DNA of 64,000 nucleotides from contig NZ_QFWH01000003.1 of the NCBI RefSeq assembly GCF_003149375.1, positions 124,001 through 188,000 of the forward strand. The letters are read 5' to 3'. Positions within the stretch are counted from its first letter, which is position 1; the number at the start of each line of letters is the position of its first letter. Shown here piece by piece: positions 54,984 through 56,774 of this stretch. Position numbers and translations under genes: made by a program. The DNA is from Vampirovibrio chlorellavorus. GTDB lineage: Bacteria; Cyanobacteriota; Vampirovibrionia; Vampirovibrionales; Vampirovibrionaceae. A model generated the notes under the pieces. The model worked only from the letters and a program-made list of their open reading frames with translations. It did no database searches and was not told the origin of the DNA.

Positions 54984-55424
54984 GCTTTCATCTTTGTGAA
55001 GGATATTTCAATTTTGACACAGAATTTTTGCAAAAAGGCTACTCAATTTTTTGAACGTGTGGTATTAATTATAGAAGTGACTTTTTAGTTTGAATAGTAG
55101 ATTTTTTCCCCTGGCATCTCAAGTTGTTGAACCATGTTTCAGGGCAAGTCCACGGGTACGGCACAAGTATAATCATCGAAGAGATTCACTGCCGAGCGGC
55201 TTCAGGATAGTCATAGCAAAGTTATTTTAGTAGTAGTAGTTGATTCGCTAAACTTCCAATCTTCAGCAAGCGCCGAGTGAGAAAGCCCAGGTAAACCATA
55301 TAAAAAGTCGTCGTTTTGGAATTTGAATAGAGTTGAAGGGTTATACGAATCCGCCCTGTCACAGCGTTCTTTGGGTATCAATCTGAATCTGGATTCGATT
55401 AAGTCAAGCGGATAGAAATTCATT
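54984..55424. other. Intergenic region between the divergent sda operon and the zinc-ribbon gene
   Basis: About 440 bp, AT-rich at 55000-55110. A TTGACA sits at 55013 but without a convincing partner at the right spacing. No supportable gene was found; the short minus-strand frame at 55211-55498 enters the next gene and has no similarity. Confidence 0.5.
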
Positions 55425-56774
55425 ATGTTCACAAACCAATGCTCTAAATGTGGAGAGGTCTTTGAGACCAAGAATCCCAAGCGGGTGATTTGTCCCAACT
55501 GCCTGTACCCGGAAGGTGCGGCGCCCGGTGGACGTCCCAGTGGTCCTCCCCAGTACCAGCAGCCACAGCGTCCCTACCAGCCTCAGGGGGGATATGCCCC
55601 ACAAGGCGGCTACGGGCAACATGGTGGATATAATCCGCAAGGCGGTGGCGGGTATGGTCCGCCGCAAGGAGGAGGCTATCAACAGCGTCCTCAGGGGTAC
55701 GGCCCGCCGCAGGGTGGGTATCAGCAGCGTCCTCAAGGATACGGCCCGCCGCAAGGGGGCGGATACCAGCAGCGTCCACAGGGCGGCGGTTATGGCCCGC
55801 GTCCGGGTGGTCCACGTCCCGGTGGTTTTGGTGGCCCGCGTCCTGGTGGCCCACGCCCCGGTGGTTTTGGCGGTCCACGCCCGGGTGGCCCACGCCCCGG
55901 TGGTTTTGGGGGCCCCCGTCCGGGAGGACGTCCCGGTGGTTTCGGTGGCCCGCGTGGTGGACGCCCCGGTGGCCCGCCCAAGAAATTGCTGGTCACCAAA
56001 GAGCAGTTGATTGAGATTGAAAAGCTCTACAAGAATTGCTTGCCCCTGCCCAATCCGGATGTCCACGAGGTGATTGGCGAGCAGATTAATCTGGCGCCCA
56101 GCAAGGTATTTTTCGGAATTAATCTGGTGCGGGAAAAAATGCGCCTGCCCAAGCTGGAATACCCCAAGCGCAAGCTGGCGGTTACGCCCGAGCAATTAAT
56201 GGCCATTGAAACCCTCTATGAGCCGTATTTGCCTTTGCCGCCCTTGGGCATTCATAAAATTATTTCCAAGCAGTTGCGCATGGATGAGTGGCGGGTCCAC
56301 GTGGCCATCGGCCTCATTCGTAAAAACCGCAACTTGACCCGCTGGAACGAAGAACGGGATGATCTCCCGCCGGAGATGAAAGAGGCCCAGCAGCGTTCTC
56401 GGGAAGAGCGTGAGAAAGCGGAGCTTGAAAAAGCGGCAGCCAAAGCCCAGGCGGCCAAAGAGGCCGCTGAGCGTAAAGAGGCCAAAGTCTCTGAATCCGC
56501 TGAGGAAAGCGCCCCTGCTGAACCTGTTGTGGCGGTAAGCGCTGACGCCCCAGAGGCTGCTGAGGCCGCCGAAGAAGTGGTCGAAGCGGTTGTGGCCACC
56601 AAGCCAGCGCCCAAACCTCGGGCTACCCGTACTAAAAAAGCAGCGGTGGCCGAAGTGGTTGAGCTGTCCCCGGCGGACGACGGTGCGGACGCATCCGACG
56701 GTGAAACTGAGGAAGCCCCGGCCCCGGTGGCGAAACCCAAAGCGCGGGCCACTCGGGCCGCCAAAGAGAAATAA
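55425..56774 (+). CDS. Unrecognised zinc-ribbon, Gly/Pro-rich protein with a duplicated helical domain
   Basis: A 449-residue protein of four parts. (1) Residues 6-26: a zinc ribbon, CSKCGEVFETK then CPNC. (2) Residues 30-185: low-complexity sequence of GYGPPQGG/YQQRPQG units, then RPGGPRPGGFGGP units. (3) Residues 187-249 and 250-310: two copies of one domain (KLLVTKEQLIEIEKLY and KLAVTPEQLMAIETLY; LPLPNPDVHEVIGEQI and LPLPPLGIHKIISKQL). (4) Residues 320-449: an alanine/glutamate-rich helical tail ending in basic ATRTKKAA and ARATRAAKEK. Parts 1, 2 and 4 suggest nucleic-acid binding and possibly condensation. I do not recognise the duplicated domain. The gene has its own terminator and appears monocistronic. 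Confidence 0.85.
   Translation: MFTNQCSKCGEVFETKNPKRVICPNCLYPEGAAPGGRPSGPPQYQQPQRPYQPQGGYAPQGGYGQHGGYNPQGGGGYGPPQGGGYQQRPQGYGPPQGGYQQRPQGYGPPQGGGYQQRPQGGGYGPRPGGPRPGGFGGPRPGGPRPGGFGGPRPGGPRPGGFGGPRPGGRPGGFGGPRGGRPGGPPKKLLVTKEQLIEIEKLYKNCLPLPNPDVHEVIGEQINLAPSKVFFGINLVREKMRLPKLEYPKRKLAVTPEQLMAIETLYEPYLPLPPLGIHKIISKQLRMDEWRVHVAIGLIRKNRNLTRWNEERDDLPPEMKEAQQRSREEREKAELEKAAAKAQAAKEAAERKEAKVSESAEESAPAEPVVAVSADAPEAAEAAEEVVEAVVATKPAPKPRATRTKKAAVAEVVELSPADDGADASDGETEEAPAPVAKPKARATRAAKEK
55795..55975 (+). repeat. In-frame tandem repeats coding for RPGGPRPGGFGGP units
   Basis: Roughly 39-bp units are repeated about three times with a shorter fourth copy, with mainly third-position differences. This implies selection for the peptide and repeat expansion. 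Related GPPQGG/YQQRPQG units lie just upstream (about 55650-55790). Confidence 0.85.

Follow-up and report, generated by a model that had tools for sequence, protein, structure and literature searches.

An intact gene for a 449-aa protein, located in the window (the whole stretch of 64,000 nucleotides of Vampirovibrio chlorellavorus DNA that was analyzed), was found to represent a single-copy core family of the orders Vampirovibrionales and Gastranaerophilales. From the N- to the C-terminus the protein joins a zinc ribbon, a low-complexity region of about 150 residues rich in Gly, Pro, Gln, Arg and Tyr, two repeats of 62–65 residues and a tail rich in Ala, Glu and Lys (Table 1). The way in which these parts are combined, their presence throughout two orders and the constraint on composition appear to be undescribed, and the individual parts are of known kinds. 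We tentatively favor, at slightly less than an even chance, a function as a lineage-specific core RNA-binding factor, possibly a condensing one, of translation or ribosome assembly. RNA as the ligand, the role in ribosome assembly and condensation are what we infer; nucleic-acid binding as such is supported indirectly by the predicted helix-turn-helix fold, the putative zinc ribbon, the net positive charge and the AT-hook-like tails of about half of the members.

Table 1. Features of the gene, its upstream region and a gene adjoining it at related loci (window positions unless a locus is named).
Feature	Position	Strand	Basis or remarks
Whole gene, 449 aa	55425..56774	+	Intact ORF, ATG at 55425, stop ending at 56774; single-copy core gene of Vampirovibrionales and Gastranaerophilales
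Zinc ribbon, residues 6-26, CSKCGEVFETKNPKRVICPNC, motif CxxC[GS]xxFETKNP	55440..55502	+	Conserved Cys and FETKNP; Pfam zinc-ribbon profiles match residues 6-26 weakly
Disordered low-complexity region, residues about 30-185, G/P/Q/R/Y-rich	55512..55979	+	Composition; 42-bp and 39-bp tandem units
Repeat 1, residues 187-248, three-helix helix-turn-helix; PLPNPD loop, KVFFGINLVR third helix	55983..56168	+	Alignment and AlphaFold
Repeat 2, residues 249-313, three-helix helix-turn-helix; PPxGxHKI, DEWRVHVxIGLIR third helix, RWNxxR end	56169..56363	+	Alignment and AlphaFold
Ala/Glu/Lys-rich tail, basic patches PKPRATRTKK and KPKARATR	56364..56771	+	AT-hook-like in relatives, missing in some
Upstream leader with conserved blocks, complementary pair CGAATCC/GGATTCG	55060..55424	+	Comparison of four Vampirovibrio genomes
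Divergently transcribed small zinc-ribbon gene	L059 5024-5500		Same place in L065, L068-L070, L072, L073, L079, L080, L082, L083, L093, L102

Composition and distribution of the family

A preliminary description, made from the letters of the window alone, had proposed a zinc ribbon and a basic Ala/Glu-rich tail, and both were borne out. The putative ribbon has the spacing C6-x2-C9-x13-C23-x2-C26, that is, two CxxC knuckles of a predicted metal site, and its four cysteines as well as FETKNP were invariant in the 12 representatives aligned; family-wide, the motif CxxC[GS]xxFETKNPKRxxCPxCL was close to invariant. The tail carries the two basic patches listed in Table 1. Neither the window protein nor most of the other members contain the RGRP core of an AT-hook: among the best 80 of 414 loci, RGRP was present in 13 and RGRK in 31, AT-hook-like tails being found in about half, and some members stop just past the second repeat. 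Since the tail varies between members, the conserved core consists of the zinc ribbon, the Arg/Tyr-rich linker and the tandem domain.

The family was found at one locus each in all of the sufficiently complete genomes of families f1–f3 (the order of the window) and in all of the sampled genomes of f6 and f10; the sole negative in the genus of the window was an assembly of 76% completeness, split into some 350 contigs. The named records with the family belonged to Vampirovibrionales and to Gastranaerophilales/Melainabacteria. The domain, searched alone, was not found in families f4, f5, f7, f8 and f9 of the same class or in the sampled photosynthetic Cyanobacteria. No credible extra copies or diverged relatives were detected in the sister families, where the best weak matches were short and lay in unrelated or wrong-frame sequence. 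As the loci viewed were the best 80 of the 414 that were confirmed in genomes, rare occurrence elsewhere is possible. A phage or defence origin was rejected, with no PHROG or PADLOC match and no member encoded by the viral contigs searched.

The architecture, whose lack of conservation would have weakened the preliminary description, was strongly conserved: the two-repeat profile matched exactly two stretches in each listed positive genome, a lone copy was never seen, and the tandem domains were 65–72% identical across orders (99% between the window protein and V. chlorellavorus NCIMB 11383). The universal, single-copy occurrence, the fixed number of repeats and this level of identity argue for a core function. 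Codon adaptation of the domain to the ribosomal genes, ranking second among the 48 ORFs of the window, points weakly to high expression. In the literature that was searched, homeodomain-like or zinc-ribbon proteins from the Vampirovibrionales/Gastranaerophilales group were not encountered. The gene occurs in all well-sequenced genomes of two orders, among them a lineage of the gut and a predator of algae, and in none of the photosynthetic cyanobacteria sampled, which makes it a candidate for core biology specific to this lineage.

Additionally, a separate protein was noted in families f4 and f9 (loci L128–L131 and L138). It combines a MerR-type helix-turn-helix and a related zinc ribbon (CQTCGKxFEHxNPKLRDCLDC) with a long middle part of low complexity and a C-terminal domain that is conserved (RSYRKAIEETRQITGSIKRRLERPDLPE...HQGWRHLSEY). 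It was rejected as a relative of the 449-aa family, the ribbon being related but the protein different, and seems to be a further undescribed nucleic-acid protein specific to its lineage.

Duplication and fold of the tandem domain

The two copies of one domain recognized in the preliminary description were confirmed. In the window protein they shared 40% identity over 58 columns, with a Smith-Waterman score of 110 against 23±4.5 in 2000 shuffles (maximum 49), and the family profiles of the two repeats (72 sequences) matched each other with a profile-profile probability of 98.7% (E 1.7e-16); the duplication is well past chance. In these 72 sequences the residues of the third helix were close to invariant, and the mean net charge was +2.5 for repeat 1 and +2.2 for repeat 2. 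Repeat 1 has a hydrophobic third helix (KVFFGINLV), and the loop residues PLPNPD and PPxGxHKI are largely invariant. The domain had been called unrecognized, which held up well: NCBIfam, PHROG and PADLOC gave no match to it, a PDB sequence search gave none below E 0.15, and the single hit was a weak one to the Pfam Homeodomain (PF00046, E 5e-5 for the tandem region). This profile matched 16 of 21 members (best 9e-7); at a gathering cut-off of 22.9, the trimmed tandem of the window protein reached 23.4 bits, the single repeats 15.2 or none, and the full protein gave no match.

AlphaFold, run from the family alignment, predicted two three-helix bundles (pLDDT 82, pTM 0.52) whose relative placement is uncertain; a single repeat was modeled with pLDDT 89 and pTM 0.77 and helices at 7–20, 28–36 and 40–53. 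Against the PDB, Foldseek placed the double homeodomains of DUX4 first for the tandem model (E 0.028, probability 0.89), followed by the winged helices of SelB with SECIS RNA (match 3) and the CRISPR-repeat binding protein 2lvs. The single repeat is predicted to adopt a three-helix fold with a helix-turn-helix; homeodomains were among its top structural matches, but NarL/GerE-type structures scored equally (E about 0.4).

The likeness to DUX4 and the homeodomain comprises the tandem three-helix arrangement, a similar first helix (TxEQLxxIExLY here, TxxQLxxLExxF in homeodomains) and the equivalent of Arg53. By contrast, the rest of the signature W48-F49-x-N51-x-R53 was replaced in the 72 sequences by Gly/Ala48, Ile49 and Leu51, and the protein is bacterial and fused to a zinc ribbon and a disordered region. 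Profile-profile comparison with homeodomains, for which the set was small (7 sequences), was no better than column shuffles, 11 of 150 and 40 of 150 of which scored equally. We conclude that the tandem domains are of a helix-turn-helix type that is homeodomain-like and lies outside the homeodomain family. A true homeodomain, or a gene acquired from a eukaryote, was rejected because of the replaced signature and the poor profile-profile score, and also because the gene tracks two orders in single copy. The other two folds retrieved differ as well. SelB shares the tandem helix-turn-helix, a place in translation and RNA binding (proposed here, SECIS in SelB), but its domains are winged helices with strands and no sequence relation, and the family protein has no GTPase. 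The archaeal protein 2lvs (Cbp1-type) is likewise small, with tandem helix-turn-helix domains, but binds CRISPR DNA repeats and lacks a zinc ribbon and a disordered region, and its E-value was weak.

The Arg- and Tyr-rich linker

The preliminary description had reported an RG/PG-rich stretch. The low complexity and the PG-type repeats were found, with tandem DNA arrays of 42-bp (2.8 copies) and 39-bp (4.3 copies) units; RG richness was not, as true RG/RGG motifs were few (one RG in the window stretch) and Arg occurred mainly in RPGG and QRP contexts. Among the best 80 of 414 loci, the predicted disordered region varied between 63 and 227 residues.

Its composition was compared with that of the neighboring genes at the 65 loci with enough neighboring sequence. 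The ratio R/(R+K) reached 0.88 in the region, the neighbors having 0.31, and the region was ahead at each of the 65 loci. The ratio followed GC content in the neighbors (r 0.92) but hardly in the region (r 0.36). Arg was retained and Lys excluded in every lineage, the genomes with 30% GC included, and in the AT-rich Gastranaerophilales the Arg codons of the region were mostly AGA. As AGA is one base from the Lys codon AAA, the retention of Arg would be due to selection or to the repeats being renewed time and again. Tyr was enriched (8.1% against 3.8% in the neighbors), and the mean content of the 65 members was 12.9% R, 2.1% K and 2.7% ILVM, a composition of the condensing type, with Arg and Tyr stickers, little Lys and few hydrophobics. 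Across orthologues the linker has gone from a Gly/Pro/Gln to an Asn/Gln/Ser sequence, a complete change in which Arg and Tyr persist; by its composition, the putative disordered region is conserved in kind, not in sequence.

In prion-like domains Tyr is a strong sticker and Lys is destabilizing (PMC11820118), a grammar with which the enrichment of Tyr and the exclusion of Lys agree. The suggestion that the protein condenses with nucleic acid thus gained support in every lineage, as a prediction from composition. That such proteins are rarely described in bacteria seems roughly fair, with a precedent in Rho of Bacteroides thetaiotaomicron, whose low-complexity insertion differs in composition between taxa and condenses (PMC10284900). 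Both are core bacterial nucleic-acid proteins with a low-complexity region of varying composition; Rho, unlike the family protein, is an ATPase helicase, there is no homology between them, and condensation of the family protein is predicted from composition only. The orthologue series, with its changed linker and constant Arg and Tyr, would allow the grammar of condensation to be tested in bacteria.

Gene neighborhoods and the possible function

In the window the gene is flanked on the minus strand by sdaA-type serine-dehydratase genes upstream and apt downstream (named by recognizable motifs), and so forms a single-gene unit in the Vampirovibrio genome. The leader before it holds the genus-restricted conserved blocks GGAGTGACTTTTTAGTTTGAATAGTAGATT, GCCGAGTGAGAAAGCC and GAGTTGAAGGGT...CGAATCC...GGATTCG. 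A structured RNA leader was considered and rejected, since the blocks are conserved but folding stability was not in excess (z +1.48) and Rfam gave no match.

Elsewhere the neighbors were often genes of translation. In 43 of the best 80 of 414 loci, rimM starts −14 to +12 bp from the end of the gene and is followed by trmD, a co-operon with ribosome maturation not seen in Vampirovibrio, and dtd often precedes the gene; NCBIfam confirmed RimM, TrmD and D-aminoacyl-tRNA deacylase. In other arrangements, the gene lies upstream of ffh (L102, L054/L056), of rpsF-ssb-rpsR with one small gene between (L064), of secE-nusG (L051/L052) or of gatB (L057/L091), the products Ffh, S6, S18, SecE, NusG and GatB being confirmed. 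These sit in separate branches of the domain tree, so the linkage to expression and translation genes arose more than once. In the large L059-type clade, the genes immediately downstream were not translation-related.

This recurrent linkage speaks for an RNA and translation factor, together with the single-copy universality, the composition of the linker, the weak sign of high expression and the third helix, whose near-invariance fits a constant target more readily than operators that vary. The protein would serve translation, most likely by chaperoning RNA or in the assembly of ribosomes. Its target, held by the helix-turn-helix repeats and the zinc ribbon, would be structured and slow to change, either rRNA or a surface of RNA and protein like that of the ribosome. 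The disordered linker would contribute multivalent contacts to RNA and might enable the protein to condense with it. Should the family act on ribosomes, these bacteria would assemble or regulate them using a component missing elsewhere. Several points count against this reading: the fold is mainly a DNA-binding one, though the SECIS-RNA-binding SelB was match 3; RGRP and RGRK tails are present in the proportions given above; the Vampirovibrio neighbors are not ribosomal, nor are the downstream genes of the L059-type clade related to translation; and operon linkage indicates co-expression, not mechanism. A bolder version, in which the tandem domains read RNA and the prion-like linker forms ribosome-assembly condensates, as a new bacterial class that is the counterpart in kind of nucleolar assembly bodies and was invented once in the ancestor of the two orders, is considered quite improbable.

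The main rival, possible but clearly less probable, is a DNA-binding architectural or regulatory protein, either a nucleoid or a global transcription factor. Its tandem domains would grip DNA like a double homeodomain, the AT-hook-like tail would add minor-groove contacts, the disordered region would cluster DNA or RNA polymerase, and the operon position would reflect co-regulation with growth. The Pfam match, the top PDB folds (DUX4 and other DNA-binding helix-turn-helix domains), the RGRP/RGRK tails and the secE-nusG neighbors, which belong to transcription too, agree with it. Nevertheless, the DNA-contact positions W48 and N51 hold Gly/Ala and Leu instead in virtually all of the 72 sequences, the tail is missing in many members, the best Foldseek E was only 0.028 and the linkage to translation genes recurs. 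The preliminary claim of nucleic-acid-binding ends holds in part, the predicted fold, the putative zinc ribbon, the charge and the AT-hook-like tails of about half of the members agreeing with it. Helix-turn-helix domains sometimes bind proteins, and a scaffold that does not touch nucleic acid, docking through its tandem domains on an invariant protein (ribosome, RNA polymerase or SRP) with the disordered region as a flexible linker, would account for the hydrophobic third helix of repeat 1 and the many invariant loop residues. It is nonetheless unlikely: Arg retention with Lys exclusion would be unexpected in a mere spacer, and both repeats carry a net positive charge.

The place before rimM-trmD in Gastranaerophilales also raises KhpA, a small KH-domain RNA chaperone whose gene usually lies between rpsP and rimM (rpsP-khpA-rimM-trmD cluster). 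No KhpA or KhpB match over the cut-off was obtained in the 12 genomes of the two orders tested (G000, G004, G005, G011, G020, G025, G030, G035, G054, G071, G086 and G245), nor in f5, f7 and f8, and KhpA was present in f4, f9 and two of the three cyanobacteria tested. A functional replacement of KhpA by the family, which would share its position and, as proposed, an RNA role, is still very improbable: fold and size differ, neither the sequence nor the fold resembles a KH domain, and the distribution is only partly complementary, the f5, f7 and f8 genomes lacking both, so that loss of KhpA needs no replacement.

Two minor observations concern the neighborhoods. In L051 and L052, secE-nusG is followed by a phosphoglycerate-mutase-like gene, not rplK, so in this Vampirovibrionales genus the common secE-nusG-rplKAJL cluster seems to have been split. 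Throughout one Gastranaerophilales clade, the gene is adjoined by a divergently transcribed one, whose product is a small zinc-ribbon protein that has a helical tail (LINCKKCGSLF...RDICDNC) and is a possible regulator or partner.
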